The notes under the pieces: generated by a model
Databases searched by the model: none
The model's input: the letters and a program-made list of their open reading frames with translations, nothing else
What the model was told of the DNA's origin: nothing
Position numbers and translations under genes: made by a program
From: Subsaximicrobium wynnwilliamsii
GTDB lineage: Bacteria > Bacteroidota > Bacteroidia > Flavobacteriales > Flavobacteriaceae
DNA: 64,000 nt
Direction: 5' to 3'
Assembly (NCBI RefSeq): GCF_007997225.1
Contig: NZ_VORM01000011.1
Span: forward strand, 62,001 to 126,000
In this document: piece by piece, positions 13,059 through 52,118 of the stretch
Numbering within the stretch: position 1 is the stretch's first letter
Layout: each line of letters opens with the position of its first letter

Positions 13059-13130
13059 TCTAGATTCTAGGTTCTAGCTACTAGCATCCAGCTTCTAGCA
13101 TCCAGCCTCTAGCCTCTAGCCTCTAGAATT
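13059..13130. repeat. 7-bp periodic tract (TCTAGCN type) next to the ychF stop
   Basis: Ten consecutive 7-bp words can be cut without slip: TCTAGAT, TCTAGGT, TCTAGCT, ACTAGCA, TCCAGCT, TCTAGCA, TCCAGCC, TCTAGCC, TCTAGCC, TCTAGAA. The tract ends 2 bp before the ychF stop codon (13131-13133). Confidence 0.85.
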
Positions 13131-14225
13131 CTAAACATTGAACAAGAAGTGCATCACATCGCCATCCTTAACCACGTAATTTTTGCCTTCCACACGCATT
13201 TTACCAGCTTCCTTTACTTTAGCTTCGCTGCCAAAAGCCACGTAATCCTCATAGGCGATGACTTCGGCACGGATAAACCCTTTCTCGAAATCGGTGTGGA
13301 TCACACCAGCCGATTGCGGTGCTGTTGCGCCAACATCAATCGTCCAGGCTCTAACCTCTTTGACACCGGCAGTGAAATAGGTTTGTTGGTTCAATAATTT
13401 ATAGGCAGATCGGATCAATTTTGCAGATCCAGCCTCTTTCAAACCAATGTCCTGCAAAAACATTTGGCGCTCTTCATAATCGTCCAACTCATTGATATCG
13501 GCCTCTGTGCCCACGGCAAGCACCAAAACTTCGGCATTTTCATCCTTGACCGCTTCCCTCACTTTCTCCACATAGGCATTGCCTGTGGTTGCTGAAGCTT
13601 CATCCACATTGCAGACGTACATCACTGGCTTATCGGTTATGAACTGCGCTGGTTTTACAAAATCGGCATAATCATCGTCACTAAATTCTAAAGCTCTTAC
13701 CGAAATGCCTGCTTCCAAACCAGATTTGATTTTCAAGAGCACGGCCTCTTCTTTTTGAGCTTCCTTATTACCGGTTTTAGCAGCGCGCTTAACCTTGTCC
13801 AATTTTTTGTCAACCGTTTCCAAATCCTTAAGCTGAAGCTCCATATCAATGGTTTCCTTATCACGAATTGGGTTGATATTGCCATCAACATGTATGATAT
13901 TATCATCGTCAAAACATCGCAACACATGAAGAATAGCGTCGGTTTCTCTAATATTGGCCAAAAATTGATTGCCCAAACCTTCGCCTTTACTTGCGCCTTT
14001 TACCAAGCCCGCAATATCAACAATCTCTACAGTTGCTGGCAATACGCGCTCCGGGTTGACCAAACTTTCCAATTTTTCCAATCTTGAATCTGGCACGTTG
14101 ACCACACCAATATTAGGTTCGATGGTACAAAACGGAAAGTTCGCACTCTGCGCCTTGGCATTGGATAAACAATTGAATAAGGTTGATTTTCCTACGTTTG
14201 GTAATCCTACAATTCCTGCTTTCAT
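13131..14225 (-). CDS. ychF: Redox-regulated ATPase / Obg-like translation-associated P-loop protein YchF
   Basis: The 364 residues match the universal family length. Visible motifs are G1 GLPNVGKST (residues 6-14), [32 protein letters not shown] (G3 region), and NVDEA in place of the usual NKxD, which is why this family prefers ATP. A helical hairpin (about 140-200, rich in Lys and Glu) and a C-terminal TGS domain ([20 protein letters not shown] to the end) follow. It binds ribosomes and the proteasome-like machinery in other species and is linked to oxidative stress. It stands alone on the minus strand. Confidence 0.96.
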
Positions 14226-14388
14226 GATGCTGTATCTTGCTTTTTCCTAATGCTATATTATGCTTCGGAAAAGGTATTTATGGGTTCTTGTTATATTTTG
14301 TAATCCTATAAAAGCTTGAGTGCGATCAAGATTTTTACTAGGGATTTTGCGAGTGCAAATGTAGGCAATTATCTTGTTGTTTGAAACA

Positions 14389-14431
14389 AAAAAGCCTGTT
14401 CAAAAATTACACGAAGCTAGAGGCTTTTTTT
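14389..14431 (-). terminator. Intrinsic terminator after the YfhO gene
   Basis: AAAAAAGCCT (14389-14398) pairs with AGGCTTTTTT (14422-14431) across a 23-nt loop, giving a T-run in either direction. It lies 120 bp downstream of the minus-strand YfhO stop and upstream of ychF. Confidence 0.6.
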
Positions 14432-14553
14432 TGAAATTCATATCGATAAAAGTGCTGCTAGATTTCAGGAAATCGGCAGCTTTTAAATCTGTCTTAGAAT
14501 CAAGATTGAGACACCTCTGAACTGCATGGATCTGATCACAATAAATTTAACCG

Positions 14554-17004
14554 CTAATCTAGCTTTTTACTCGTTTCTGATGTTCTTCGGAAGGCCATAT
14601 AGGTTCCCCCGAAAATAAGTAAAATCAACAGGATGGAACTCCCCAACGCAATCTGGCTCCCGGTTTGGATGACCTCAGGCTCAAATTTGAAAACTATTTT
14701 ATGCGTTCCTGCAGGCACATTCATCCCTCTAAGTACATAATTCACGCGGTGATGCGGCACTTTTTTTCCGTCAAGTGTGACCTGCCAGCCGTTACCGTAG
14801 TAAATTTCAGAAAAGACTGCAAAACCATTGTGAGCGTTGTTGGTTTCAAACTCCAATAGGTTTGGCTCGTATTTGCTTAGTTTTATAGATGCCAATGAAT
14901 CAACCGTGAAACGTTGAGTACTCAAATCTGAAGCTGTGGTGACCGCCTTGACCTTGGTATTTAAACTGTCTAAAGCCTTGATTTCAGCATTTGCGGAATT
15001 CAATTTCTCTAATTCTGACACAAACCAAGCATTCCCGTTGGGTTGGGTATAAGTGGTAGTGGCCTGGATTTGATTGGCCTCATCATCCACAATAATATAC
15101 TTGGTGTTGAGCATGTTGAGCACCTCCATATTGTTTTTGGCGATATGAAAATCATAAAGCTCATCAAAACGTTTGAGTTTTGCAGCATGGTACCCACTCA
15201 AGCTATTGTGAAAATAGGCAGCACGCGCGGGCATGGCACTTGCTTGTGAAACATCCAAAACCCGAAAATGTGTCTTGTCTTTCAGGACTTCCAAATCGGC
15301 AGCATTCGCTTGGTAAGGCTTGTTGACCTGTAAAGCTGAAACAAAATTATCATTATTGACATAACGCCGATTCACACCTACCAAATCAAATAAAATCAAG
15401 ATTGCGAAAATACCAATGACTACGTTTTCTGAGATTTTTTTCTTCAGAAACATAAAAATGCTACCTGCGGAAAGCAAGACCAAAATCAAGGTTCTAAGTG
15501 TATCTTGGGTAAAGAAGCTTTTTCGATCTTCCTTCAAAGCATCCACAAAGGCCTGGCCATATTCACCATACATTTGTCGAAATTGGCCATCTCTAGCGCC
15601 AACAAAATCGAAAAAGGTGGATTTGAACAGCAAGAATACCAATGCCAATCCGCCCACAATTAAGGTGCTGTATTTAAGTGCCTTTAACTTATCTTCGTCT
15701 TTATCAAAATCATTGAAGAGTTTTACCAAACCAAAAATCGCCAGAACAGGCAAGCACAATTCAATGATGACTTGAATGGAGCTAACCGCCCGAAACTTGT
15801 TGTATAAGGGCACGTAATCAATAAAGAAATCGGTCAAAAACCCAAAATTCTTTCCGTAGGATAACAATAGCGATAAGATACTAGCACCAACAAGCCACCA
15901 TTTTAGGCGCCCTTTTACCAAAAACAAGGCAAATACGAACAAAAATATCACAACCGCTCCAATATAAGCTGGAGCTTCAACAATGGTTTGATCGCCCCAA
16001 TAGGTTGGTGTTTCCGCCACTGCTTCCAATGCTTGCACAGGGCTTGCACCTATGGTTTTATAAAATTCGTAGGAAGCAGAATCCTTTCCAACATCCTCAC
16101 CGCTACCACCACCTAAAAATCTCGGGATGAATAGGTTGAAGGTTTCCACCAAGCCGTAACTATATTCCGTAATATAATCCTTGCTCAAACCAGAAGTAAT
16201 TTCCTTTTGTGAGCCGTCTGCATTAATTGTAAGGTCACTTTTACCACGTGTACTTTCTTTCACGTACTCTTGGGTGGCCATGATGTTTGTAGCATTCAAG
16301 CCAACTGCCAGTATCACGCCAATGCTCATGATGCCAACCGATTTGAAGAAATGAGGCAGCATCTTTTTTCTATAAGCATCAACTAGATAGGCGACTCCCA
16401 AAACCAAAACCAACAACATCAAATAATAGGTCATTTGAAAATGATTGGCCTGTATCTCAAGACCAAGCGCAATGGTAGTGAGCAAAAAGCCAAAAATGTA
16501 GCGTTTCCTAAACGTTAATATAATACCACTCAACACCAAAGGCATATAGGCAATGGCGTGCGCTTTACTATTATGCCCAACGCCCAAAATGATAATGAGA
16601 TAGGTGGAAAAGCCAAAAGCCAAAGCTCCCAATGCAGACAAACGATAATCAACCTTTAATGCAAGTAACAATACGTAAAAACCTAAAAAATAAATAAATA
16701 GGTAGTCTGCAGGTCTTGGCAAAAAGCGCAATGCAGTATCTAATTTCTTGATGTAATTATGTGGATAGGCAGCGCCCAATTGATAGGTTGGCATGCCGCC
16801 AAATGCACTATCGGTCCAGTAGGTTTCCTCGCCTGTTTCAGCCTTAAACTCCTTTTGCTGCTTAGACATGCCAATATAATGCATGATGTCGCTTTGCTCT
16901 ATCTGTTTGCCTTGCAAAACAGGACTAAAATAAATGAGTGAAACCACCACAAAACCTATCAATACAAGTAAGTGAGGCAGTATTTTTTTAAACGAAAATT
17001 GCAT
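14554..17004 (-). CDS. YfhO-family polytopic membrane protein
   Basis: The 816-residue protein begins with a membrane helix (about 9-27) and a periplasmic loop that contains DSAFGGMPTYQLGA, the typical YfhO start. About a dozen further helices run to residue 570 (for example FIYFLGFYVLLLALKV, LGALAFGFSTYLIIILGVGH, IFGFLLTTIALGLEIQANHF). A large exported domain follows (NAWFVSELEKLNSA, AHNGFAVFSEIYYGNGWQVT), with a final helix near 785-805. The fold is that of GT-C-like glycosyltransferases; in Firmicutes YfhO glycosylates teichoic acids, but the flavobacterial substrate is unknown. The preceding gene on the strand is the DUF4834 protein, 130 bp away. Confidence 0.85.
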   Translation of the reverse strand: MQFSFKKILPHLLVLIGFVVVSLIYFSPVLQGKQIEQSDIMHYIGMSKQQKEFKAETGEETYWTDSAFGGMPTYQLGAAYPHNYIKKLDTALRFLPRPADYLFIYFLGFYVLLLALKVDYRLSALGALAFGFSTYLIIILGVGHNSKAHAIAYMPLVLSGIILTFRKRYIFGFLLTTIALGLEIQANHFQMTYYLMLLVLVLGVAYLVDAYRKKMLPHFFKSVGIMSIGVILAVGLNATNIMATQEYVKESTRGKSDLTINADGSQKEITSGLSKDYITEYSYGLVETFNLFIPRFLGGGSGEDVGKDSASYEFYKTIGASPVQALEAVAETPTYWGDQTIVEAPAYIGAVVIFLFVFALFLVKGRLKWWLVGASILSLLLSYGKNFGFLTDFFIDYVPLYNKFRAVSSIQVIIELCLPVLAIFGLVKLFNDFDKDEDKLKALKYSTLIVGGLALVFLLFKSTFFDFVGARDGQFRQMYGEYGQAFVDALKEDRKSFFTQDTLRTLILVLLSAGSIFMFLKKKISENVVIGIFAILILFDLVGVNRRYVNNDNFVSALQVNKPYQANAADLEVLKDKTHFRVLDVSQASAMPARAAYFHNSLSGYHAAKLKRFDELYDFHIAKNNMEVLNMLNTKYIIVDDEANQIQATTTYTQPNGNAWFVSELEKLNSANAEIKALDSLNTKVKAVTTASDLSTQRFTVDSLASIKLSKYEPNLLEFETNNAHNGFAVFSEIYYGNGWQVTLDGKKVPHHRVNYVLRGMNVPAGTHKIVFKFEPEVIQTGSQIALGSSILLILLIFGGTYMAFRRTSETSKKLD

Positions 17005-17134
17005 GGAATGGTTTTAAAAGGAAACGAAGGCGAAAAGTAGTTATTTTTTTTGGAATACCATTAAAACCATCATGACGATTGTAAGCGTTTGAAGATGCGC
17101 GATCCCAATGAATTAATTGTTACCGATTTGAGAA

Positions 17135-17419
17135 TCAATCAATTTCTTCATAGTCAATATATTCACCAACTTCCTTATCAGAGTTCTTGTCAGAATTTGG
17201 CACTTTATCAATAACCGTTTCTCCCGCTCTCTCATTTTGAGCTTGCTGCTGGCGTTGTTGCTGCTGAAATTGACCACCAAAACGCTCCTGCATTTTTTTA
17301 GACATATAACGCACAAAATAAGGCGCAAAAAATCTAATGAGAATTTTTATCCCGTAGTAAATCAATACTATGACTAAAATCGTGCGTAAAAAACCAATTA
17401 AAGAGGCAGCTTGAAGCAT
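17135..17419 (-). CDS. DUF4834-type small membrane protein
   Basis: The 94-residue protein has one N-terminal membrane helix (about 6-28, SLIGFLRTILVIVLIYYGIK), an amphipathic FAPYFVRYMSKKMQERFG segment and a Gln-rich stretch (QQQQRQQQAQ). It ends acidic with the phrase YIDYEEID. That architecture is the DUF4834 family of Bacteroidota as I know it. The function is unknown. It lies upstream of YfhO on the same strand and may be cotranscribed. The divergent gene begins 106 bp away. Confidence 0.8.
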   Translation of the reverse strand: MLQAASLIGFLRTILVIVLIYYGIKILIRFFAPYFVRYMSKKMQERFGGQFQQQQRQQQAQNERAGETVIDKVPNSDKNSDKEVGEYIDYEEID

Positions 17420-17494
17420 TTAAAATTTTTTTCAAAAATACAATTATATGAATTTAAAATGACTTTTAAATACTTAAAAAATATATAAAATCTC

Positions 17495-17502
17495 TATATT
17501 TG
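17495..17502 (+). promoter_or_regulatory. -7 box of the outer-membrane protein gene
   Basis: TATATTTG fits TAnnTTTG, 23 bp before the ATG at 17526. The upstream region is A/T-rich, without a clear -33 TTG. Confidence 0.5.
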
Positions 17503-17525
17503 GCTGAAATCCTAAGCGGAAACCA

Positions 17526-18443
17526 ATGTTCAAAAAAATCCTACTGCCATCACTATTGTTAGCATCCTCTCTAGTATTTGCCCAATACACAGAGGTTATC
17601 AACTCTAATAGACCAGGTGTTTCAAAGAGTGCATTTTCTGTTGGCACCAATGTGGCTCAATTTGAAGTGGGACCATACATGATCAAGGAGGAGCACACAC
17701 CATTAAATTATGAGGTTTCAGGTTTTGGCGCTGACTTCTCTGCACGATACGGTTTGCTTTTTGAACAATTGGAACTCAATATAGAAGGCATTTATCAAAA
17801 TGACACCTTTAAGGATAACCGATCTGCAATTACTTCCGAACGAAGTCGTGCCAACTTTAAAAGTTTTGCCGTTGGCGCCAAATATTTAGTTTATGACCCT
17901 TATAAAAATGAAGGTCAAGAGAAACCGAATCTTTACAGTTACCATGCTAATTTTGGCTTTAAATGGAAAGACTTGATTCCTGCAATAGCGGTTTATGCGG
18001 GTGCTAATTTTGATACCAAAGACAACCCGTACACCGCCCCAGGGATAGAAGGTTTTAGCCCAAAAGTAATGATCGCCACGCAAAATAATTTTTCTGGCGG
18101 ATGGGTATTGGTGCTCAATCTAATAAAAGACCGTATTGGAACCGAGCAATCAGACTTTCAGTACGTCGTTACTTTGACCCATAGTTTCAATCCGCAATGG
18201 GTGGTTTTTGGGGAAACCCAAGGCATCCAGAGTGACTTTTATGCCGACAATCTGTTTCGATTTGGTGGCGCCTACCTGTGGAGCAAGGATTTTCAAATCG
18301 ATACCGCAGTCACGTTCAATACAAAAGATACGCCTTCCGTTTTTGGTGTCAATCTCGGACTTTCCTACCGTTTGGATTTTCATCAGGATAAGGAAATTGA
18401 CAATAAAAATTCTGTTGAAGATGTTGACAAACGACGTAATTAA
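17526..18443 (+). CDS. Outer-membrane beta-barrel protein, phenol-MetA/transporter-like
   Basis: The 305-residue protein starts with a signal peptide (MFKKILLPSLLLASSLVFAQ, cleavage after Ala-Gln). The mature protein begins with VINSNRPGVSKSAFSVGTNV, the pattern of the PF13557-like 'transporter / MetA-pathway of phenol degradation' proteins in Bacteroidota. Alternating strands with aromatic girdle residues run to the end (AQFEVGPYMIKEEH, LSYRLDFHQD), consistent with about 12 barrel strands. A charged tail (EIDNKNSVEDVDKRRN) follows. The transported molecule cannot be inferred. The downstream GNAT-like gene is on the same strand 60 bp away and may share the transcript. Confidence 0.8.
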   Translation: MFKKILLPSLLLASSLVFAQYTEVINSNRPGVSKSAFSVGTNVAQFEVGPYMIKEEHTPLNYEVSGFGADFSARYGLLFEQLELNIEGIYQNDTFKDNRSAITSERSRANFKSFAVGAKYLVYDPYKNEGQEKPNLYSYHANFGFKWKDLIPAIAVYAGANFDTKDNPYTAPGIEGFSPKVMIATQNNFSGGWVLVLNLIKDRIGTEQSDFQYVVTLTHSFNPQWVVFGETQGIQSDFYADNLFRFGGAYLWSKDFQIDTAVTFNTKDTPSVFGVNLGLSYRLDFHQDKEIDNKNSVEDVDKRRN

Positions 18444-19663: not shown

Positions 19664-19705
19664 AAGTAGAAAGTACAAAGAATCAAGACTCTAGACTCTT
19701 GACAA
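19664..19705. repeat. 7-bp periodic tract (AAGNNTC type)
   Basis: Six words cut without slip: AAGTAGA, AAGTACA, AAGAATC, AAGACTC, TAGACTC, TTGACAA. The tract begins 35 bp after the stop of the GNAT-like gene and precedes the terminator. Confidence 0.7.
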
Positions 19706-27511: not shown

Positions 27512-27908
27512 AGGAAGTGAAATAGACGGGAGACGGGAGAAGATGAAGATGAAGATGAAGATGAAATAGAAGTTGAAATTGAAATTGAACTTGATCCCGA
27601 TAACTATCGGGAGAAGATGATGGCGATAGAATTAGCTTTGAAGGAATTAAAATAGACGGGAGAAGATGAAGATGAAGATGAAGATGAAATAGAACTTGAA
27701 ATTGAACTTGAAGATGATGGCGATAGAATTAGCTTTGAAGGAATTAAAATAGACGAGAGAAGATGAAGATGAAGATGAAGATGAAGATGAAGATGAAATA
27801 GAAGTTGAATTTGAACTTGAACTTGAAATTGAAATTGAAATTGAAATTGAAATTGAAGTTGAATTTGAATTTGAACTTGAAATATAAGATGATGCCGATA
27901 GCTATCCG
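27512..27908. repeat. Compound purine-rich minisatellite after prfB
   Basis: Three long units begin with AATAGACGGGAGA-like text (27521, 27651, about 27747). Each continues with runs of GATGAA or GAAGAT, then GAAATT/GAACTT words, and closes with GATGATGGCGATAGAATTAG or a decayed form of it. The inner words have a period of 6, but GACGGGA at the left edge has a period of 7. A TCCCGATAACTATCGGGA hairpin lies at about 27595-27612. No start codon opens a sensible protein. Confidence 0.8.
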
Positions 27909-27964
27909 AACTTGAAACTTTGAACTTTGAACCTTGTAACCTTAAACCTTAAATTTTTAAAATC
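27909..27964. repeat. 7-bp periodic tract (AACTTTG type) ending at a start codon
   Basis: Eight words cut without slip: AACTTGA, AACTTTG, AACTTTG, AACCTTG, TAACCTT, AAACCTT, AAATTTT, TAAAATC. The last word touches the ATG of the HAD gene at 27965. Confidence 0.8.
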
Positions 27965-29420: not shown

Positions 29421-31937
29421 ATGAATCAAATTTTATCTGCACTTAGCCTAATGTTCTTATGTAGTTTGAGTTCGCTCTCTGCACAAAATAAAATCAACAT
29501 CTCAGGCACTGTTGTAGATTCACAAGAAAAATACCCTTTAGAATATGCGACGATCTCTTTTTTCAATCCCAATGGGAGTGAAGCGATTGAAGGCGGCATC
29601 ACTGATCTTGAGGGAAAATTCAATATTGAGGTGGTTCCTGGCAATTACGACCTAAAGATTGAATACCTCTCCTACAAATCAAAGACCTATAAAAATAAAT
29701 CTCTCACAAAAGCTATGGATTTGGGTACCGTTGGTCTCGAAGTGGATATGGCAGCTTTAGATCAAGTAACAATTGTGGCTGAACGTACCACGGTCGAAAT
29801 CAAGCTCGATAAGAAAATATATAATATTGGCTCAGATCTTACCACGGCAGGCGGTACCGTGAGTGATGCCCTTAACAATGTCCCATCAGTAGCGGTAGAT
29901 GTTGAAGGGGGGATTAGTTTACGCGGTAATGAGAACGTCACGATATTGATCAATGGAAAACCTTCAGCCATGGCAGGATTTGGCGACACCAACGTATTGA
30001 GCCAATTGCCTGCAGAAGCCATTGAACGCGTTGAGGTAATAACCTCTCCTTCCGCGAGATATGACGCCGAAGGCACTGCGGGGATTTTAAACATTATACT
30101 CAGACAAAAGGAAACGCTTGGTTTCAACGGCTCCATAACACTCAATTTAGGTAATCCCGATCTTGCGGGAATTGCTGCCAACTTGAATTACAGGACTGAA
30201 AAATTCAACCTGTTCTCCAATATAGGTTTTAGATATGACGATGCGCCGCGAAACAGTTTTAGTGATGCCAATTACTTTGACCGATTGATAGACGGCGCAT
30301 TGCGTTCACCGGAATACGAGCGTATTGTAGAAGACCAACAGGTAGAACGAAACAACCGTGGTTACAACGCCAATGTGGGTATGGAGTATTTTTTATCTGA
30401 TAAAACGTCGCTCACCGGAAGTATCTTTTACCGCTATAAGGAAGATGCCGACATTTCAAATAATGATAGTGAGCGCTTCAATAACAATGCAATTGTAGAG
30501 CGCACCTTAAGGATAGAGCGGGAAAATCAAGATGAGAACAGTTATCAATTGGCACTCAATTACATGACCAAGTTTAATGATGAAGGGCATGAATTAACTG
30601 CAGATTTTCAGTTTGAAGAGGATCGCGAAAATCAAAACACCTTTATCAACGAGGATTATCTCCTCACACAAGATGCAGCAACAGTTCCTTTTCAAAAAGA
30701 ACAAATTTTTGCTACAGAAGATCAAAAAGAGTTTCTTTTTCAAGCCGATTATGTCTTGCCCATTGGTGAGGATGCTCGATTTGAAGCGGGTTACCGAGGC
30801 AATTTTGAAAACGAAATCACTGATTATAGGCTAGAACAGGAAGATTTGAGCGACGCTTCGTTTTTTGTAAACGACACCATTACCAACCTATTTGATTACG
30901 AGGAAAACGTCAATGCGGTCTATTCGCAATACGGCAACAAATTTGGCAAATTCTCATTTCTTTTGGGTCTGCGTTTGGAAAACACCCAGCTTAAAGGCAC
31001 TATTGATTCCAGATTATCTGATGAAGAATTAGTGGAAGCCTTTGGTTTCCCTATCGATACCGACTTCAATAATAATTATTTAGGGCTTTTCCCTACGGTT
31101 AACTTGATTTATAACCTAGGCAAGGACGAGGATCAGGAAGAAAGCCTTACTTTGGGTTATAATAGACGTATTAATAGACCTAGAAGTTGGTATATCAATC
31201 CGTTCCCTACGCGTTCTAGCCGTACCAGGGTTTTTCAGGGTAATCCCAATTTAAATCCGGCCTTCTCCAGTGCCTTCGATTTAGGCTATTTGAAACGTTG
31301 GGATAAATTCACATGGACCACTTCCGTTTATTACCAATACGAAAGCGATTCTTTTGAGCGCGTTGAGGAAAATACGGGGCAACGAACTACAGATGGCATT
31401 GACATCATACGAACCATTCCGGTAAATTTATCCAACAATATAAGAACTGGAGCAGAATTAGGCATTCTCTACAATCCAAAAAAATGGTTGCGATTGAATA
31501 GCAGTATCAATTTCTTTCAGTTTAAAACTGAAGGCGAATTCAACGGCATCGACTACGGCGCAAAAAATACAAGTTGGTTCGCACGTTTCAGCGGAAAAGT
31601 GACGCTACCTGGCAATATTGACTGGCAAACCAATGCATTCTATCGAGGTGCTGAGGAAGGTGCGCAGACCAGGACCGAGGGTCTCTTTTCTATGGATTTA
31701 GCCATCAGCAAGGAAGTCTTAAAGAATAAAGCAACGGTTTCATTGAATGTTCGGGATGTATTCAACTCCAGAATAAGAAATCAATTTACCACTACTGAAT
31801 TTTTCCAGCGTTATTCAGAGTCCCAATGGAGACAACGCCAAGTGACCTTATCACTGCTGTATCGCTTTAATATGAAGAAAGAAAAATCACGTAACGGAAG
31901 CCGCGAAAATGGAAATGAATTTGAGTTTGAAGGATAG
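29421..31937 (+). CDS. Outer-membrane TonB-dependent-receptor-like beta-barrel protein
   Basis: The 838-residue protein has a signal peptide (about 1-21), a CarboxypepD-reg-like domain (about 25-108: INISGTVVDSQEKYPLEYAT), a plug domain (about 120-225: IYNIGSDLTTAGGTVSDALN, GGISLRGNENVTILINGKPS, PAEAIERVEVITSPSARYDA) and then a 22-strand-type barrel to the C-terminus. The 'NNVPSVAVDVEGGISLRGN' phrase is typical of the outer membrane beta-barrel family 3 (PF14905-like) receptors of Bacteroidota. No SusD partner is encoded nearby, so it is unlikely to be a SusC. The ligand is unknown. The C-terminal tail is basic and polar (KKEKSRNGSRENGNEFEFEG). Confidence 0.88.
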   Translation: MNQILSALSLMFLCSLSSLSAQNKINISGTVVDSQEKYPLEYATISFFNPNGSEAIEGGITDLEGKFNIEVVPGNYDLKIEYLSYKSKTYKNKSLTKAMDLGTVGLEVDMAALDQVTIVAERTTVEIKLDKKIYNIGSDLTTAGGTVSDALNNVPSVAVDVEGGISLRGNENVTILINGKPSAMAGFGDTNVLSQLPAEAIERVEVITSPSARYDAEGTAGILNIILRQKETLGFNGSITLNLGNPDLAGIAANLNYRTEKFNLFSNIGFRYDDAPRNSFSDANYFDRLIDGALRSPEYERIVEDQQVERNNRGYNANVGMEYFLSDKTSLTGSIFYRYKEDADISNNDSERFNNNAIVERTLRIERENQDENSYQLALNYMTKFNDEGHELTADFQFEEDRENQNTFINEDYLLTQDAATVPFQKEQIFATEDQKEFLFQADYVLPIGEDARFEAGYRGNFENEITDYRLEQEDLSDASFFVNDTITNLFDYEENVNAVYSQYGNKFGKFSFLLGLRLENTQLKGTIDSRLSDEELVEAFGFPIDTDFNNNYLGLFPTVNLIYNLGKDEDQEESLTLGYNRRINRPRSWYINPFPTRSSRTRVFQGNPNLNPAFSSAFDLGYLKRWDKFTWTTSVYYQYESDSFERVEENTGQRTTDGIDIIRTIPVNLSNNIRTGAELGILYNPKKWLRLNSSINFFQFKTEGEFNGIDYGAKNTSWFARFSGKVTLPGNIDWQTNAFYRGAEEGAQTRTEGLFSMDLAISKEVLKNKATVSLNVRDVFNSRIRNQFTTTEFFQRYSESQWRQRQVTLSLLYRFNMKKEKSRNGSRENGNEFEFEG

Positions 31938-31957
31938 TTTTTAAGTTTGAAATAGCA

Positions 31958-32013
31958 AGTAGTTAGTGGGTAGTGGGTAGTTGTTAGTTGTTAGTTGTTA
32001 GTTGTTAGTTGGA
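31958..32013. repeat. 7-bp periodic tract (AGTTGTT type) after the receptor gene
   Basis: Eight words cut without slip: AGTAGTT, AGTGGGT, AGTGGGT, then AGTTGTT four times, then AGTTGGA. It starts 20 bp after the receptor stop codon. Confidence 0.9.
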
Positions 32014-42034: not shown

Positions 42035-42051
42035 GGTTGAAAAAATTTAAT

Positions 42052-42072
42052 GTTCAAAGTTCAAAGTTCAAG
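42052..42072. repeat. Short 7-bp periodic tract (GTTCAAA type)
   Basis: GTTCAAA, GTTCAAA, GTTCAAG, immediately upstream of the minus-strand gene that starts at 42034. Only three words, but it is in the same class as the longer tracts. Confidence 0.6.
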
Positions 42073-42184
42073 GTTTTCCTAATGCTAACGAAAAGCTGTA
42101 CCAAGTTTTGCGGTTCTAACTAAATCGAGTCCTTGCTGCCAAATCAACAAACTCTCAAATTTGAGCTTCATTATTTCTGTTTTC

Positions 42185-44269: not shown

Positions 44270-46222
44270 TCAGTTTCCAAATTGTTCCCGAGCTTCCGCA
44301 TCAATATGCATTTGATTGACGCGTGATTCTACTTTTCGTTTGAAATCGGTGTCGGCAATGGTGGCAACATTGTCTAAATAACGCACGACCTCTTGACGTC
44401 GGATTTCAGAAAAGTCCAATCCTTTCATATTGGCGCGCATCAATTCCTGTAGCATACCAAATTTCGTCTCGTAATCCTTTTTGAAATAGGTCTCTGGATT
44501 GTCAAACCAAGACTGTTCCAAATCGAAGTCGGTCAATCTCAGGGAAACGGCACTTTGGATGTTTCTTACATCGCGCGATGAAAAGAACGGAAAAATCTTC
44601 TGGACTTCCTTGTACAAATTGGCGTAAAACAATTGCTCATTGGTTTTATACTGTTTTTCCATTTTGTCGTAAACCTCGAAAACACGTTCCTCTGTGGGTT
44701 TGTTGGTCACATTAAGAATTTCGCCCATATTTTTTGCCAAACCTTGATCTTGAAGATAATCGTAATTTTCAGGATTTTTCATATTCACAAAATCGGGCAT
44801 GGTGTCATCAAACTTGCGCCACCATAGATGATCTTGATCTAAAAAGTCGTGTTCTGTGCGGGCACCATCAATCTTGAAACGTCCTTGCACACGGGAGATG
44901 ACCGCTTTATCCAACATTTCTGGAAGATTGGTAAAAAGACCAATGGAACTATTGCCATAATTCACGGCATACGCACCTTCCGTATAACGTAAAAACACAC
45001 CTATCACTTCCTTGACACCTGCTGAAACACCTTGTGCGGTTCGTTCCTGTAAATTATTTTCGGCATCATCAATGGGTGCGAAAATCAATTTTGAAGGATC
45101 TTGCAAAGGTTTCATCCAATCCACCATTTTTTCTGCAGAACCCCCTTGAAAGGTTGAAATAAGCGTGTCTGGCATGGGATGGAACAGAAATGGAATATCC
45201 AGGTTATCGCTGTGTTCTTTCAATCGGGTTGCAATGGCGGCAATGAGCATGCTTTTTCCAGTTCCGGGAATACCGTAGCCCATAAAAACGGGCATAAAAC
45301 CACCCAATTCTTGAAACGGATTCTTTTGTGCGGTAAAATCGTAACTCAGTAAACGCTCGGTCAAACGTCGCGCAAAATGCTTGGCGTCTCTGTTCCCAAC
45401 AATTTGTTCAAATTGTATTTTATTAAACTCCACACTCTTCGCAGCCCCTTGAAACGCATTGTCCCAACCTGAAATCGCGAAATCTGATTTTTCCAGTTTA
45501 TAGGTTCTATCGATAATGGTCTCGGTATATTCCAAACTGCTTTTACGCATTTGTATTTCGGCAATCAAGGCCTGAAAAAAGACCACTGTAAAATCCACCA
45601 CATCCTGATCTGACTTGATCATTTCTGGATGCCCCAAATACTTGTCGTAATAGAACATGGCGCAGGACGTTCCTTTTAAAGGCGTCATCAAGGACACTTC
45701 GGGAATGCCGGCAAACTTGTTTTTCATGACACTCAAATCGTCGGAAACGGAAGTCTGTAAATCAAATAAAATCTTATATGCTGCGGAAAACAACATAAAC
45801 GCCGTGGCGGTTTGCATCTTGCTTTCGTATTCCCGTTTCCCGGAAGTATCCAAAGCCGACTTATTTTCTATCAGGCTGGAAAGTCCGGAAGCATCGTAGT
45901 AACTATCCTTAATCCAAATGCCAAGTGTGAGCCCTTCCTGCACCGCATACAGCGTTTGGTTCAAATGCAAGGGGATGGCGATGGAATCTGGCAACAAACG
46001 CTTCTTAAGGTCTAAGATGGTCTTTGAGACCGAGGCGCCTTCCGCAGCGTTACCTTTGGCGCGATTGAGATACAATAAAATCGATTCGTCCTTGTTGTCC
46101 TTATTCTTATTTTTGGCGCGTTGCCCTTGCTCCCATTGCACACTTTTGATGTAAGACGTTGCTTCATCCCGAAGCATGTCCAGTTCATTTTGTTTTATGG
46201 GAAAAGTTGAGTTGTGTTCCAT
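44270..46222 (-). CDS. AAA+ ATPase of unknown role
   Basis: The 650-residue protein has an N-terminal helical part of about 290 residues, then an AAA+ module. Walker A is GYGIPGTGKSML near residue 316-327, Walker B LIFAPIDDAENNL (about 379-391) and sensor 1 GNSSIGLFTNLPEMLDKAV (about 423-441) with a candidate arginine finger SRVQGRFK after it. A C-terminal region of about 190 residues (EVQKIFPFFSSRDVRNIQSA) ends the protein. The B strand carries Asp-Asp-Ala-Glu instead of the common D-E. No transposase, protease or helicase domain is attached. It may remodel proteins or membranes together with the coiled-coil and membrane proteins encoded around it. Confidence 0.82.
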   Translation of the reverse strand: MEHNSTFPIKQNELDMLRDEATSYIKSVQWEQGQRAKNKNKDNKDESILLYLNRAKGNAAEGASVSKTILDLKKRLLPDSIAIPLHLNQTLYAVQEGLTLGIWIKDSYYDASGLSSLIENKSALDTSGKREYESKMQTATAFMLFSAAYKILFDLQTSVSDDLSVMKNKFAGIPEVSLMTPLKGTSCAMFYYDKYLGHPEMIKSDQDVVDFTVVFFQALIAEIQMRKSSLEYTETIIDRTYKLEKSDFAISGWDNAFQGAAKSVEFNKIQFEQIVGNRDAKHFARRLTERLLSYDFTAQKNPFQELGGFMPVFMGYGIPGTGKSMLIAAIATRLKEHSDNLDIPFLFHPMPDTLISTFQGGSAEKMVDWMKPLQDPSKLIFAPIDDAENNLQERTAQGVSAGVKEVIGVFLRYTEGAYAVNYGNSSIGLFTNLPEMLDKAVISRVQGRFKIDGARTEHDFLDQDHLWWRKFDDTMPDFVNMKNPENYDYLQDQGLAKNMGEILNVTNKPTEERVFEVYDKMEKQYKTNEQLFYANLYKEVQKIFPFFSSRDVRNIQSAVSLRLTDFDLEQSWFDNPETYFKKDYETKFGMLQELMRANMKGLDFSEIRRQEVVRYLDNVATIADTDFKRKVESRVNQMHIDAEAREQFGN

Positions 46223-46236
46223 TTTTTTTTAATCTT

Positions 46237-46292
46237 CAGTATTCAATATTCAGTCTTCCGTCTTCCGTCTTCCGTCTTCCGTCTTCCAAAAC
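46237..46292. repeat. 7-bp periodic tract (CCGTCTT type) upstream of the AAA+ gene
   Basis: Words: CAGTATT, CAATATT, CAGTCTT, then CCGTCTT four times, then CCAAAAC. It begins 15 bp before the minus-strand ATG at 46222, so it is in the 5' region of the AAA+ gene. Confidence 0.88.
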
Positions 46293-46358
46293 GCATAACA
46301 TCAAAAATCCATTGTTCCACTTTCTTTTTTAATAGGCATCCCAAACTACTTTCTGCCA

Positions 46359-46393
46359 ACTGAGGACTGCCTACTGCAGACTGCTGACTTCAA
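46359..46393. repeat. 7-bp periodic tract (ACTGCNN type) overlapping a gene end
   Basis: ACTGAGG, ACTGCCT, ACTGCAG, ACTGCTG, ACTTCAA in exact 7-bp register. It covers the stop codon (46371-46373) of the minus-strand gene and supplies its last codons (V-S-S-L-Q). Confidence 0.75.
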
Positions 46394-47592: not shown

Positions 47593-47611
47593 TAGCAATT
47601 CCAAATATACC

Positions 47612-48955
47612 CTAAGATAATAAATCGTCGGCTCCAGCTTTTGGTTTTGAAGAAGCAGCGGGTTTAGCATCGTCTCCTGTTGGCGCTGCAGCATCGGCTT
47701 TGTAGTAATCTTCAAATATTTCTTTCATATCAATGCCATACCGCTCTGAGAAATTCTTCTGTATGTCAAGATCCTTCGCTCTAATTTCCTGCAAAGCTTC
47801 CGCATAGCTGCTATAAACACCTTGCATGACTTTTTCATGAACTGGGATATTGTCCATCATTTCTTGACGTGCTTTGGCGCTCGCGGTATGCATCGACGCT
47901 AGGGTTTCTCCAATATGTTCATCGGTTTTCACACCCAAATGCTCTAAAATGGCAGCGAATTCCTGATCGGTTCGCGCCTTTAGAGCCACCACATAACCGT
48001 CATAGTATTTAAGACGCTCTTCTGTATCACTCTTTAATTTGGCGCGATGTGTTTGCAAGTTGCTTCTCAAGGAAGTCAACACCTTAATGGTCAAATTATG
48101 CTTGTGCACGAAACTGTCTTTTGATGCAGCCAAGGTGGTGTAGGCATTCTTGAGACCTTCCAGTTCTTCGACCTCTTGCTCAATAGTGGTCACTTTACCA
48201 ATGGCTTCAGCATAATTTGCCGATTGCTTGTCCACAATTTCCTCAAGAGCTTGGCGCGCTTGTTTTAGAGCTGCGTATTTTTCCTCGAGTTTAGCTTCAA
48301 CCTCTTTCTTTTTCTCTAAGGATTTTATGTGATTTTTAGTGGCCTCAACAATTGCAGTTTGAAGTTTATCTTCGACCTCCTTGATCTCCACCTCTCGATT
48401 TTTAAGTCGCGTAACCGCTGCCTGTGACTTGTAACTTAATTCGCTAAGTAGCGTTTGAACATCTGCAGACTCTATACGCGTTTGAAACATGGCTTTCGCC
48501 TTATTATCGGCAGCATCTCTATCTTTTTGAGCGGTTTGCAGATCCTGCTGTGCTTCCTTGATTTTACTTTTGCGGCCCCAAAGATTATTCCACCAGCTAT
48601 CTGGCTTGGCTTCAGCATCTTCCAGTTCAACTTTAGAACGCTCCAAGCGTTTTACGGCATCGTCAATGATTTTTTGCTCATTGGCATTTAATGAGGAGAA
48701 TTTTTCAAAAATGATCCCAACTTCATCTTGATAATCGGTAAGATCCTTAATGGCATCCAATAATGTGCTGCGGTCTTTTTCAGCCATGTGAACCACGTCG
48801 TCTAATGTAGCATTAAGGATTTTTTGACGACTTTCTGGATCATCTTCCTGGGCTAGTTTGGATTTCATCGTGTCAATGGCTTTGCCCCAGTTGACATCTA
48901 CTTTTTCACTTTTTTCGTTGGAGTTGGTCTCCAATAAATCAAAATCATTAGACAT
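47612..48955 (-). CDS. Long coiled-coil protein (TelA/PspA-like in shape)
   Basis: The 447-residue protein is almost wholly helical. Coiled segments run from about residue 75 to 330 (NEQKIIDDAVKRLERSKVEL, DLQTAQKDRDAADNKAKAMF, KKEVEAKLEEKYAALKQARQ), with a Trp-rich break WWNNLWGRKSK near residue 130. The last 30 residues are low complexity (AAPTGDDAKPAASSKPKAGA) and end DDLLS. There is no membrane segment. The shape recalls TelA toxic-anion-resistance or PspA/IM30-type proteins that act with AAA+ partners at membranes, but I see no decisive motif. Databases may call relatives microtubule-binding, which is only a reflection of the coil. Confidence 0.78.
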   Translation of the reverse strand: MSNDFDLLETNSNEKSEKVDVNWGKAIDTMKSKLAQEDDPESRQKILNATLDDVVHMAEKDRSTLLDAIKDLTDYQDEVGIIFEKFSSLNANEQKIIDDAVKRLERSKVELEDAEAKPDSWWNNLWGRKSKIKEAQQDLQTAQKDRDAADNKAKAMFQTRIESADVQTLLSELSYKSQAAVTRLKNREVEIKEVEDKLQTAIVEATKNHIKSLEKKKEVEAKLEEKYAALKQARQALEEIVDKQSANYAEAIGKVTTIEQEVEELEGLKNAYTTLAASKDSFVHKHNLTIKVLTSLRSNLQTHRAKLKSDTEERLKYYDGYVVALKARTDQEFAAILEHLGVKTDEHIGETLASMHTASAKARQEMMDNIPVHEKVMQGVYSSYAEALQEIRAKDLDIQKNFSERYGIDMKEIFEDYYKADAAAPTGDDAKPAASSKPKAGADDLLS

Positions 48956-49101
48956 AGTATAGGTAGTGTTTAGGTTGAAATTTGTTTTGGAATAGCAATG
49001 TCGTTAAAAAATATGGTTTTTGAAACTATTACATTCGTAATTTATTGGTAGAAAAAATCAATAAAATGTTACAGCTGATCTTAAAAATGTAGGTTTGTTA
49101 T

Positions 49102-49109
49102 TATCTTTG
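49102..49109 (+). promoter_or_regulatory. -7 box of the metallo-hydrolase lipoprotein gene
   Basis: TATCTTTG fits TAnnTTTG, 17 bp before the ATG at 49127. A TTG at the expected -33 distance is not obvious. Confidence 0.5.
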
Positions 49110-49126
49110 AACAAAATTCTATAATT

Positions 49127-49924
49127 ATGAAAACCAACACCTTATTACTAATGTTCTTTTTAGCTTTGCTAAGCGCTTGTAAAACAGAAAAAAAAGAAGT
49201 CGGCGAAAAAGACATGAACACCAATACTCCTGAAATGCAAAAAAGCGAGAACGCGTCCCAAAAGGAATTGAAAATATCACCAATTGAACATGCCACTATG
49301 GTTTTGACTTATGGCGATGATCAAATTTTCGTAGACCCAACGAAGGGCGTGGAAGCCTTTAAGAAATTTTCTGCACCTCAAATTGTGTTGATTACCGATA
49401 TACATGCCGATCACTTTGACTTGGAAACCCTTAAAGCCCTAAACTTAAAAAACACTACCATAGTTGCTCCAAAAGCGGTAGCCGATCTATTTCCTAAAGA
49501 TTTTAGATATGGAAAATTAATCATTCTCGATAACGGGGAAACACAAAACATCATGGGTTACGATATAGAAGCCATCCCAATGTACAATTTGAGAGAAGAG
49601 GCTTTGAAATTCCACCCCAAGGGACGAGGTAACGGTTATGTGATCAACTTCGGATCTAAGCGCATCTACATTTCAGGGGATACAGAAGACATTTCCGAAA
49701 TGAGAAATCTCAAAGACATTCAAGTGGCCTTCGTTTGCATGAACCTTCCTTATACCATGACCGTGGAAAGTGCTGTGAGTGCTGTATTGGAATTCAAGCC
49801 TGACAAAGTCTATCCCTATCATTATAGAGGTACGGATGGTTTGAGTGACATTGAAAAATTTAAGACAATGGTCAACAAAGGCGATGAAAGTATTGAAGTC
49901 GTAGCGTTGGATTGGTACAACTAA
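49127..49924 (+). CDS. Metallo-beta-lactamase-fold lipoprotein (UlaG-like)
   Basis: The 265-residue protein has a lipoprotein signal (TNTLLLMFFLALLSAC, lipobox LLSAC), a polar linker, and an MBL domain from about residue 55: IEHATMVLTYGDDQIFVDPT, then LITDIHADHFD (the HxHxDH site reads D-I-H-A-D-H with the first His replaced by Asp), GRGNGYVINFGSKRIYISGD (metal-bridging Asp) and PYHYRGTDGL (last His). It resembles UlaG-like lactonases, here bound to a membrane from outside. The substrate is unknown. The changed first ligand (Asp for His) is worth checking because it could alter the metal site. Confidence 0.85.
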   Translation: MKTNTLLLMFFLALLSACKTEKKEVGEKDMNTNTPEMQKSENASQKELKISPIEHATMVLTYGDDQIFVDPTKGVEAFKKFSAPQIVLITDIHADHFDLETLKALNLKNTTIVAPKAVADLFPKDFRYGKLIILDNGETQNIMGYDIEAIPMYNLREEALKFHPKGRGNGYVINFGSKRIYISGDTEDISEMRNLKDIQVAFVCMNLPYTMTVESAVSAVLEFKPDKVYPYHYRGTDGLSDIEKFKTMVNKGDESIEVVALDWYN

Positions 49925-50030
49925 AATAATTGAACATCTTAAGGGTCAGACCTCGAACTTTTTTATAATGAAATAGTTGAGATTGTAATTAAAAATGTAT
50001 ATTTGATTTCCCAAGGCTAAAAAACTTAAC

Positions 50031-50264
50031 ATGAATTCATTTATCTCCTTACCGAATTTGATACTCGTTAGCGCTACCCAGCTCACAATAGTACTAATCA
50101 TTACCGCCACGATATTTGCAATTTTCATTGGTGCAGCAGTGATAAAAATGTTCAAGCTAAAGGCAGAGAGCAAACGATTATTAGACAATAGCACCTTTAA
50201 AAAGGATGTAGATAAAAGCTACAAAGATTTTACCGATAGTCATTTATACGATAGTAATAACTAA
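50031..50264 (+). CDS. Small membrane protein
   Basis: The 77-residue product has one long hydrophobic segment (about 15-40, SATQLTIVLIITATIFAIFI, then GAAVIKM) followed by a charged helical tail (KLKAESKRLLDNSTFKKDVD) and SHLYDSNN. No family is recognised. It stands alone, 106 bp after the MBL lipoprotein, and ends at a strong terminator, which supports its reality. Confidence 0.6.
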   Translation: MNSFISLPNLILVSATQLTIVLIITATIFAIFIGAAVIKMFKLKAESKRLLDNSTFKKDVDKSYKDFTDSHLYDSNN

Positions 50265-50280
50265 AAATTTATACATTACA

Positions 50281-50318
50281 ACATAAAAAAAACCTGCAAG
50301 TTGCAGGTTTTTTTATGT
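50281..50318. terminator. Bidirectional intrinsic terminator
   Basis: ACATAAAAAAAACCTGCAA pairs with TTGCAGGTTTTTTTATGT (one mismatch), with T-runs on both strands. It ends the small membrane protein gene (+) and ettA (-). Confidence 0.9.
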
Positions 50319-50334
50319 GTGATACTTTCTAAAA

Positions 50335-52026
50335 TCATCTCACTAACTTTTTATATTTTATTCTCTTGGGCATGAGATCACCGCCTAAACGTTTTTTCTT
50401 GTTTTCTTCATATTCAGAGAAACTACCTTCAAAGAAATAGACTTGACTATTGCCTTCAAATGCCAAGATATGTGTGCAGATACGGTCTAAAAACCATCTA
50501 TCGTGAGAGATGACCACTGCACAGCCTGCGAAATTTTCCAGACCTTCCTCCAAGGCTCTCAAGGTATTGACATCAAGATCGTTGGTAGGCTCATCTAGGA
50601 GCAGCACGTTACCTTCTTCCTTCAGCGTCATCGCCAGGTGCAAACGGTTACGTTCACCACCAGAAAGCAATTTCACTTTTTTATTCTGTTCACTGCCCGA
50701 AAAATTGAATCGGCTCAAATAGGCTCTAGAATTCACTTGTCTTCCGCCCATCATGATCAACTCTTGTTCATCACTAAAATTTTGCCAAATGGATTTTTCA
50801 GCATCAATATTGGAGTGTTTTTGATCAACATAAGCCAATTTTGCGGTTTCACCGACCTTGAACTCGCCTTTATCTGGGTTTTCCTCGCCCATAATCATCC
50901 TGAAAATCGTTGTTTTACCAGCACCATTGGGCCCAATAACACCAACAATTCCCGCTTGAGGCAATTTAAAATTCAAATCCTCATACAGTAATTTGTCATC
51001 ATAGGCTTTGCTTACACCATTGGCCTCAATCACATTGGTTCCCAAACGCGGTCCGTTAGGGATGTAGATTTCCAGTTTCTCGTCGAGTTGCTTTTGATCT
51101 TGGCTCAACAATTTGTCATAATTGTTTAAACGCGCTTTCTGTTTGGTCTGTCTTCCTTTAGCGCCTTGACGCACCCATTCTAGCTCACGCTCCAAGGTTT
51201 TTTGACGTTTGGAAGCTGTTTTGCTCTCTTGCGCCATGCGCTTGGACTTTTGATCCAACCAAGACGAATAATTCCCCTTCCATGGGATGCCCTCACCTCT
51301 ATCCAATTCCAAAATCCAACCTGCCACATTATCCAAAAAGTATCTATCGTGGGTTACCGCGATAACAGTGCCCTTATACTGTGCCAAATGATGCTCCAAC
51401 CAATGTACCGATTCGGCATCCAAGTGGTTGGTAGGCTCATCCAATAGCAAAACGTCGGGTTCTTGCAACAACAAGCGACATAAAGCCACACGACGTCGCT
51501 CCCCACCAGAAAGTACACCTATTTTTTTATCGCCTTCTGGGGTGCGCAATGCATCCATAGCGATTTCTAATTTGGTATCGAGTTCCCAAGCATCTGCAGC
51601 ATCAATTTGATCCTGTAGCACCGCTTGGCGATTCATCAATTTCTCCATTTTATCGGGATCACTATACACTTCCTCAAGACCAAATTGGTCGTTGATTTTA
51701 TTGTATTCGTCAAGGATTGCAACCGTTTCTGCAGCACCTTCACGCACTATTTCCATCACGGTCTTATCATCGTCCAATTGTGGGTCTTGCTCTAAATACC
51801 CCACAGTGTAGCCCGGAGAAAACACAACATCGCCCTGATAATTGGTATCCACACCTGCGATGATTTTCAATAAGGTGGATTTACCAGAACCGTTGAGCCC
51901 TAAGATTCCAATCTTTGCGCCATAAAAGAAACTCAAATAGATGTTTTTAAGCACAGGCGTATTTGCACTTTGATAGGTCTTTGTGAGACCAGACATTGAA
52001 AATATTACTTTTTTATCGTCACTCAT
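50335..52026 (-). CDS. ettA: ABC-F translation factor EttA
   Basis: The 563-residue protein has two ABC domains without membrane parts: Walker A GILGLNGSGKSTL and GVIGPNGAGKTTI, ABC signatures LSGGERRRVALC and LSGGERNRLHLA, Walker B VLLLDEPTNHLDAE and VLLLDEPTNDLDV, and the linker with a basic helix (ERELEWVRQGAKGRQTKQKA). The EttA type is indicated by the short arm and a total length near that of the Escherichia coli protein (about 555). EttA binds the E site of the ribosome and regulates initiation of elongation with the ADP/ATP ratio. Its 5' region is a heptamer tract that fills the space to the next gene. Confidence 0.93.
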   Translation of the reverse strand: MSDDKKVIFSMSGLTKTYQSANTPVLKNIYLSFFYGAKIGILGLNGSGKSTLLKIIAGVDTNYQGDVVFSPGYTVGYLEQDPQLDDDKTVMEIVREGAAETVAILDEYNKINDQFGLEEVYSDPDKMEKLMNRQAVLQDQIDAADAWELDTKLEIAMDALRTPEGDKKIGVLSGGERRRVALCRLLLQEPDVLLLDEPTNHLDAESVHWLEHHLAQYKGTVIAVTHDRYFLDNVAGWILELDRGEGIPWKGNYSSWLDQKSKRMAQESKTASKRQKTLERELEWVRQGAKGRQTKQKARLNNYDKLLSQDQKQLDEKLEIYIPNGPRLGTNVIEANGVSKAYDDKLLYEDLNFKLPQAGIVGVIGPNGAGKTTIFRMIMGEENPDKGEFKVGETAKLAYVDQKHSNIDAEKSIWQNFSDEQELIMMGGRQVNSRAYLSRFNFSGSEQNKKVKLLSGGERNRLHLAMTLKEEGNVLLLDEPTNDLDVNTLRALEEGLENFAGCAVVISHDRWFLDRICTHILAFEGNSQVYFFEGSFSEYEENKKKRLGGDLMPKRIKYKKLVR

Positions 52027-52118
52027 TGTTGTTTGTTGTTAGTTGTGGAGTTGTTAAGTCGTTAAAGTAACGACTGCATACTGAAGACCGTGGACTGAAA
52101 TCTGCGACTGAGAACTAA
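52027..52118. repeat. 7-bp periodic tract filling the ettA upstream gap
   Basis: TGTTGTT, TGTTGTT, AGTTGTG and related words lead into ACTGCAT, ACTGAAG, ACCGTGG, ACTGAAA, TCTGCG, ACTGAGA-like words with a single slip. The tract runs from the ettA start codon to the stop codon of the small upstream gene at 52119, so it occupies the whole intergenic space. Confidence 0.75.

Follow-up and report, generated by a model that had tools for sequence, protein, structure and literature searches.

Intergenic repeats of period seven in Subsaximicrobium wynnwilliamsii and a candidate ladder hairpin at operon junctions of related bacteria

Introduction

Why should intergenic tracts that are built of different words share one period of seven bases? 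The question is raised by a stretch of 64,000 nucleotides from Subsaximicrobium wynnwilliamsii (Bacteroidota, Flavobacteriaceae; contig NZ_VORM01000011.1 of assembly GCF_007997225.1, positions 62,001 to 126,000), referred to below as the window (G+C content 39.6%). One of its proteins has its nearest relatives in Algicola, Yeosuana, Algibacter, Winogradskyella and Flaviramulus. An inspection of its letters alone, here called the sequence-only reading, had picked out eight tracts at or near gene edges, described them as runs of heptamers with a separate word at each locus, and attributed them to slippage or to a factor that reads spacing and not base identity. Here we report that such tracts are strongly over-represented between the genes of this organism, that the commonest of them keep a four-base core (ACTG, or CAGT on the other strand) next to three free bases, and that in other genomes arrays of this core form facing pairs, CAGT before ACTG, at the same operon junctions in different genera. 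We suggest that these pairs may fold in polycistronic transcripts into a ladder-like hairpin whose arms grow by 7-nt slippage, a reading to which we give an even chance of being correct.

Period-7 excess in intergenic DNA

The survey of the window genome covered 60 stretches with 823,023 of its 4,896,608 bases (16.8%), the assembly consisting of 132 contigs; contig C42 was included on account of its match to AGTTGTT. Genes were taken as the longest open reading frames (ORFs) with a minimum of 100 aa (between 60 and 150 in some analyses), so that start edges are approximate, and tracts were defined, after ORF calling, as gapless self-matches scored at lags 3 to 30. The 129.5 kb of intergenic DNA contained 64 period-7 tracts, as compared with a mean of 0.12 (maximum 1) in eight dinucleotide shuffles, and the 692 kb of coding DNA contained one. 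Intergenic counts at other periods were 22 (period 6), 6 (period 14), 0 or 1 each (periods 8 to 13) and 0 to 3 (remaining lags); the period-6 runs represent a second intergenic excess of this genome. The window genome thus carries a strong intergenic tandem repeat of period 7, in excess of both other periods and shuffled sequence, as befits heptameric intergenic simple sequence repeats, and the lag-7 excess that the sequence-only reading had expected over shuffled controls is borne out. One tract was found in the 72 divergent gaps, 18 in the 64 convergent gaps and 34 in the 289 co-directional gaps. The 64 tracts reduce to 34 canonical words, several of which recur (AAGACTG in six tracts, AACCTTG in five), so the words are not as distinct as had been thought.

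The excess is far stronger in the window genome than in its relatives, where 97 related loci contained 10 period-7 tracts. According to the sequence-only reading, disappearance from close relatives would mark the tracts as random low-complexity sequence. This disappearance is seen in part: 20 stretches from genus relatives (45.7 kb of intergenic DNA) contained a single strict period-7 tract, whereas the ACTG arrays before the start at 46222 recur in three genus relatives and in another genus (see below). Heptad tracts at loci L074 and L065 lie near the orthologues of the window tracts at 31958 and 27909, and are treated as possible chance, since 10 tracts were found over 68 loci.

Slippage, as had been proposed, fits most of the tracts: the words are many, one of them is strongly multiplied at 46237, and neighbouring units are most alike, their likeness falling from 0.845 at distance 1 to 0.759 at distance 14. 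In one array compared between sister species, which are not close strains, the gaps as aligned span 15 and 27 columns and are not multiples of 7. We infer that 7-nt slippage at many unrelated seeds best explains the period-7 tracts of the window genome, most of whose other words show slippage and edge polarity only. Word-specific transposition was rejected, as the 150-bp flanks match mainly among neighbouring tracts or through shared hexamer or heptad runs, and no common element was seen within 150 bp on either side of same-word tracts. G-quadruplexes were likewise discarded, G runs being present in few of the words.

Facing arms at recurring operon junctions

Three CAGT units followed, after 3 to 33 bases, by three ACTG units were found in 31 of 299 genomes, and the opposite order (ACTG, then CAGT) in one of the 299, at one place; this test is independent of gene calls. 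The sole opposite-order pair is locus L283 (G248:C1:203784). The CAGT-then-ACTG pairs occupy at least 52 distinct places in the 31 genomes, some of them orthologous, and the gaps of 30 sampled pairs had flanking genes in the orientation ++ in 16 cases, -- in nine, +- in three, -+ in one and unknown in one.

The proteins flanking arrays were compared all against all at 71 loci with one array each; several genomes appear twice among the 71, whereas the 30 pair loci represent one per genome. Junctions that recur in other genomes hold 22 of these 30 pair loci. They include rpoB/rpoC (five genomes from four genera), sufC/sufD (five genomes), atpD/atpC (five), nqrD/nqrE (three), trpD/trpC (two), MoxR/DUF58 (two) and the 16S-23S spacer (six), where two genomes each at atpD/atpC, nqrD/nqrE and the 16S-23S spacer come from a pattern search with four consecutive ACTGNNN units. 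Names were assigned on one example each, by NCBIfam (rpoB, rpoC, atpD, sufC, sufD, nqrD, nqrE, trpD) or Pfam (AtpC, TrpC, MoxR-type AAA, DUF58). A rough expectation for 30 random gaps, with about 2000 gaps per genome, is far below one junction coincidence. Five of the six rRNA-operon arrays lie between two tRNAs and one lies between the 16S rRNA and a tRNA, so translation is not required. Paired TTCAANN/TTGAANN arms, also tried, were found in 0 of 249 genomes in either order, which makes that comparison uninformative.

In the proposed element, the CAGTNNN arm would lie 5' and the ACTGNNN arm 3', together filling the gap between co-directional neighbour genes. The cores would pair as RNA (4 bp) and the spacers would stay open as 3x3 internal loops, so that the period would be the pitch of a ladder hairpin. 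Acting in cis in polycistronic transcripts, mRNA and pre-rRNA alike, such a hairpin would fold the spacer away and might mark or protect the boundary between units, with a putative role in processing or in the stability of individual segments. As only the core and the pitch would matter, slippage could add and remove units, and the spacers could drift. Four paired and three open bases at recurring operon junctions would give one large class of heptamers a concrete reason, separate from plain slippage. Should the hairpin serve processing or stability, the rpoBC, atp, suf, nqr, trp and rRNA operons of Flavobacteriaceae would contain a cis element that is so far unlisted.

Fixed core and free spacer

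The commonest core, ACTGNNN, has four fixed and three free bases, and many tracts likewise keep four bases and vary three (e.g. CTAGNNN at 13059 and ACTGNNN at 46359). Clustering of the variable phases is seen in tracts with six or more units (window genome, 41 tracts, p 0.002; G049, 10 tracts, p 0.002; G283, 14 tracts, p 0.087). Four consecutive ACTGNNN units with free spacers are found in 95 of 249 genomes of the family, with 146 matches in the window genome against 21 for the reversed control, and in 70 of 198 genomes of the phylum, some of which are rich in the control core instead. In five genomes (G439, G446, G459, G502 and G429) the control pattern GTCANNN x4 is abundant, either in place of ACTGNNN or together with it, and other lineages of Bacteroidota may accordingly use another core.

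Distances between intergenic ACTG words of the window genome peak at 7, 14, 21 and 28 (68, 52, 43 and 30, against about 2), with a small excess at 6 and 13 (11 and 8). The spacers are diverse, with 41 different triplets among 172 spacer readings (43 matches, 30 loci). In two orthologous arrays of G049 and G279, sister species that are 88% identical over 6 kb (cores defined on G049), 8 of 111 core positions had changed, as compared with 30 of 72 spacer positions. Thus, spacing and a short core are kept, not spacing alone. The idea of a factor that reads nothing but spacing is therefore not supported for the largest class, which keeps four of its seven bases (ACTG/CAGT). For G283, 15 of the 20 stretches were chosen around ACTG matches; the five others contained no ACTG pair at distance 7.

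Polarity at gene edges

The edge rule was scored on 59 of 105 arrays with at least three ACTG or CAGT cores, namely those with a single gene edge no more than 25 bp away; the other 46 are close to both edges or to neither, or lie within an ORF or at the end of a contig. Read outward from the gene, 56 of the 59 edge arrays are CAGT, at stops and starts alike (3 of the 56 are repeat readings of one place). At start edges 20 of 21 arrays read ACTG in sense, and as many arrays or more lie at stops. A bias of the same words outside arrays was considered as the source of this orientation and rejected: there, ACTG and CAGT are balanced (32:30 and 70:73 in the window genome). Before starts the trimer ACT outnumbers AGT in four of the five sets (361:232 in the window genome), with no mirror image after stops.

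A related trend in composition holds for all words of the window genome, whose tracts are G/T-rich on leaving the left gene and A/C-rich on nearing the right one. Position correlates with G/T skew (rho -0.59, p 3.6e-6) in the 53 of 64 tracts that lie between two called ORFs; the other 11 were left out here and in the counts of edge distance, growth and duplexes. Of the 14 tracts at a left edge 12 follow the rule, as do 15 of the 21 at a right edge, and tract-free gaps are near zero. The trend is weaker in G283 (21 tracts, p 0.07) and was not seen in G049 or in 68 kin loci (9 tracts each). The tracts also crowd the edges: 26 of 53 lie no more than 15 bp from a gene edge, against 11.4 for random placement, and the corresponding figures are 14 of 20 against 3.7 in G283, 3 of 9 against 1.8 in G049 and 4 of 8 against 2.4 in the kin loci.

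Tracts of the window

The features of the window, one per line, are as follows.

13059..13128, no strand: CTAGNNN heptad tract, 2 bp from the TAG stop of ychF (13131-14225, minus)
19664..19705, no strand: weaker purine-rich heptad tract, in a convergent gap, 35 bp past the stop of the 18504-19628 gene
27909..27964, plus: TTGAACC-type heptad tract, shifted, abutting the start codon of a HAD hydrolase gene (27965; PF13419)
31950..32013, plus: AGTTGTT heptad tract, 12 bp past the TAG of an outer-membrane beta-barrel gene (29421-31937; PF14905)
42046..42075, minus: TTCAAAG heptad tract, 11 bp ahead of the start of the 41498-42034 gene (minus)
46223..46292, minus: putative start-side arm of a ladder element, leading into the ATG of an AAA ATPase gene (44270-46222, minus; PF00004)
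46359..46393, minus: putative stop-side arm of the same element, CAGTNNN units in sense
52027..52118, minus: heptad gap upstream of ettA, with CAGT-type heptads at the stop and AACAACT-type heptads at the ettA start

The eight stretches were sliced into 7-mers and identity was computed for each lag. Lag-7 identities, in the order of the sequence-only reading (13059-13128, 19664-19705, 27909-27964, 31958-32013, 42052-42072, 46237-46292, 46359-46393, 52027-52118), were 0.78, 0.74, 0.71, 0.88, 0.93, 0.82, 0.68 and 0.46; the period is therefore real, being strong (0.68-0.93) in seven of the eight and weak in the last. Cutting without shift breaks down at 27909-27964, where identity is 0.60 at lag 8 and 0.63 at lag 15. 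Tandem Repeats Finder reported period 7 at 13059/13073 (7/14), 27908, 31958, 42052, 46231/46249 and 52026 and period 14 at 46353, and reported nothing at the 19664 tract.

The tracts do lie at or near gene edges, as had been noted, the farthest being the one at 19664. The assignment of a separate word to each locus is partly wrong, as the tracts at 27909 (AACTTTG) and 42052 (GTTCAAA) are one word on opposite strands (both canonical AAAGTTC), and those at 46237 and 46359 appear to be the paired arms of a single ladder element. The tracts at 13059 (next to ychF, assigned by TIGR00092), 19664, 27909, 31958 and 42052 are heptamer repeats; those at 27909, 31958 (G/T skew +0.52 over 31950..32013) and 42052 share the edge polarity by composition.

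Both arms are present in the gap 46223-46370 with its flanks. Read in sense, 46223..46292 begins with ACGGAAG units that have drifted and multiplied; ACTG-core units follow, and after them an A-run and the ATG. CCGTCTT at 46237 thus reads as a drifted ACTG-core array facing the array at 46359 (ACTGNNN as written). The CAGTNNN units of the latter start within the 3' end of the 46371-47408 gene and provide its TAG stop. Three genus relatives (G002, G009 and G020) have ACTG arrays ahead of the same AAA ATPase start, and G084, from another genus, has the same two genes (proteins 68% and 82% identical to those of the window) with a CAGT arm on the stop side and an ACTG arm on the start side, about 440 bases apart. 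Other relatives have short ACTGAAGACTA-like stretches or nothing at this junction. Predicted minimum free energy and centroid structures both pair the arms as a ladder, and the duplex of the 46223..46292 arm with the rest of the gap toward the other arm has a z of -2.7.

The tract at 52027-52118, which is the entire stop-to-start gap between a 60-aa ORF (52119-52301, minus) and ettA (TIGR03719), is probably another ladder, partly drifted. Among eight genus relatives in which this gap was located, three (L178, L180 and L181) have similar AACAAC leaders and none has a clear CAGT arm. The DNA of the 60-aa ORF just upstream of ettA matches many genus relatives at 76-85%.

Predicted RNA structure of the paired arrays

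Folding of the pair gaps predicts rungs of 4 bp with 3x3 loops between them, at pitch 7; for example, L241:17255-17400 folds at -35.6 kcal/mol (z -3.3) and L241:16060-16205 has a z of -4.35. In 29 of the 30 pair gaps, the predicted paired fraction is 0.93 for cores and 0.38 for spacers. Random spacers fold equally well (0 of 29 gaps below z -1.64; spacer mean z +0.38), and in fixed register the complementarity of the two arms' spacers, 1.35 of 6, is lower than the 1.91 of re-paired controls (standard deviation 0.17). Because free folding leaves the spacers neutral, the claim is limited to spacers not being selected to pair.

At the rpoB/rpoC junction, RNAalifold returned the ladder for 11 gaps picked as ladder-like, with 17 pairs, three of them with two-sided change. 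We read 70 of the 84 rpoB/rpoC gaps found, with genomes drawn evenly over the family: 41 had a hairpin of some sort, made up of five strict ladders and 36 others, four of which look like degraded ladders by eye. As hairpins are common there and strict ladders few, the ladder appears to be one way of building an rpoB/rpoC hairpin. The five rpoB/rpoC ladders examined have no T run of the kind that follows the G+C-rich stem of an intrinsic terminator, and end in an A-rich stretch and ATG. The rpoB/rpoC gap of the window genome itself (L297) has 190 nt and several hairpins, and no ladder.

Weighing the ladder hairpin against its alternatives

Several results count against the proposed hairpin. The strong folding of the 29 gaps is inherent in the search pattern, and the covariation term of the 11 rpoB/rpoC gaps is weak (-0.09); as the cores hardly vary, pairing is not proven. 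Strict ladders make up only 5 of the 70 rpoB/rpoC gaps, and 29 (22 short, 7 longer) show no clear hairpin. The genome with the most ACTG matches of all, G246, had no period-7 tract in 102 kb. In the window genome no CAGT/ACTG pair with a spacer of up to 33 was found, and its tracts are densest in convergent, not co-directional, gaps. The whole-gap fold of the 46237/46359 element is no better than shuffles (z -0.39), and the stretch upstream of ettA has z +1.66. For four of 53 tracts the duplex with the remainder of the gap reaches z < -2.5, against 2 of 53 in a shuffled-tract control (mean duplex z -0.85 and -0.31, respectively). With so few tracts pairing and no close pair found, most tracts of the window genome are not ladder arms.

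The simplest alternative, functionless replication slippage with 7 nt as the slip unit of the polymerase and selection clearing genes, is unlikely as a full account, although it deserves to be taken seriously. It agrees with the many words, their near absence from coding DNA, the likeness of neighbouring units and an expansion not common to genus relatives, and such a proposal for heptamers is reported in PMC4692102. It leaves unexplained the arm order (31 genomes against one), the edge polarity (56 of 59), the fixed core with a free spacer and the same junctions across genera. Edge polarity that is independent of gene strand, the exact pitch of ACTG words (peaks at 7, 14, 21 and 28) and spacers that are not selected to pair (0 of 29 gaps) would all suit a DNA-binding factor that recognizes CAGT at intervals of 7 bp (two thirds of a helical turn), such as a boundary or nucleoid protein between transcription units. 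Such a factor has no need of facing arms, and the near emptiness of divergent gaps (one tract in 72) speaks against it; we find it improbable.

Equally doubtful is an action of start-proximal arrays on translation initiation, as MacGregor proposed for TAACTGA. ACTG arrays do stop a few bases short of starts, they recur before the same AAA-ATPase and nqrE starts, and ACT exceeds AGT before starts even outside arrays, but arrays at stops and in rRNA spacers obey the same rule. Far less probable than any of these is growth at broken ends, extended 5' to 3' with G/T-rich heptads and rejoined, which would leave CAGT pointing outward on both flanks, as in fused telomeres. A single rule would then cover both edges and all words (rho -0.59, 53 tracts), and in fixed register no complementarity is seen between the spacers of one arm and those of the other. 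Ku-dependent joining was rejected on the distribution of Ku (present in 6 of 25 genomes rich in arrays and in 2 of 25 poor in them), and a distal polarity of growth on its weakness within arrays of the window genome (20 to 10, sign p 0.10) and its absence from G283 (4 to 4). Recurrence at the same junctions across genera would not be expected from end growth.

Comparison with known repeats

REP sequences (repetitive extragenic palindromes), BIMEs (bacterial interspersed mosaic elements), REPINs and intercistronic hairpins are extragenic inverted repeats that often lie between cistrons. The arms of the candidate ladders resemble them in being extragenic inverted repeats between cistrons, and differ in that their stems have nothing in common except a core of 4 nt repeated at pitch 7; about four of seven bases per unit are shared, and no conserved palindrome common to the copies was found. 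Searches of 12 ladder loci against Rfam 15, at E up to 1, gave no family match at the gap of any of them. Structured RNAs of Bacteroidota lie near three of the 12, elsewhere than in the ladder gaps: Flavo-1 RNA in L259 and L280, and a Bacteroid-trp leader in L241.

Heptamer repeats as such are a known kind (PMC4692102; PMC4679880), and in this the statement of the sequence-only reading that it knew of no named element of this type was mistaken. The first of these papers, from 2015, mentions over-representation of heptamers in bacteria as noticed without detailed literature and describes GGGNATC and GGGGA(T/C)T, which are heptameric simple sequence repeats found in Xanthomonas and Nostoc (PMC4692102). 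These are similar to the tracts described here in their period, intergenic location, abundance per genome and varying number of units; they are G-rich and, in that text, are discussed as G-quadruplexes. Here, by contrast, the 64 tracts comprise 34 words, and there are facing arms and a polarity at gene edges.

Closer to the present core are the TAACTGA direct repeats, a rotation of ACTGNNN, found in Beggiatoaceae, cyanobacteria and five Bacteroidetes (PMC4679880). In the BOGUAY genome 147 of 170 sets point to a start codon (Table 1 of PMC4679880); elsewhere some sets follow stops in reverse orientation, and mixed heptamers occur in Bacteroidetes. As described there, that system has one fixed heptamer, related ones being rare in BOGUAY, and one inverted repeat, unlike the free spacer bases, facing arms, identical junctions across genera and rRNA spacers seen here. 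The arrays in our set do point toward nearby starts (20 of 21 start-edge arrays), and their 41 spacer triplets in 172 readings are not those of a fixed heptamer. Searches of an open-licence library of papers turned up no facing-arm ladder at fixed junctions, which does not prove it unpublished.

More tentatively than the hairpin itself, we propose that these elements could form a structured RNA of a new class, which may be called a 'heptad ladder', with 4-bp CAGU/ACUG rungs and 3x3 open loops. Across Bacteroidota it would lie between the units of polycistronic transcripts, and a protein dedicated to it, either RNA-binding or a nuclease, would measure pitch and core, not spacer. In giant sulfur bacteria and cyanobacteria, the TAACTGA arrays would then represent its single-arm relatives.

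Other repeats near the tracts

Window positions 27520-27883, just ahead of the tract at 27909, contain a near-duplicate block of about 97 bp with hexamer runs (GAAGAT, TGAAAT) and the palindrome CCCGATAACTATCGGG. The sequence CCCGATAGCTATCGGG recurs at four other sampled places.

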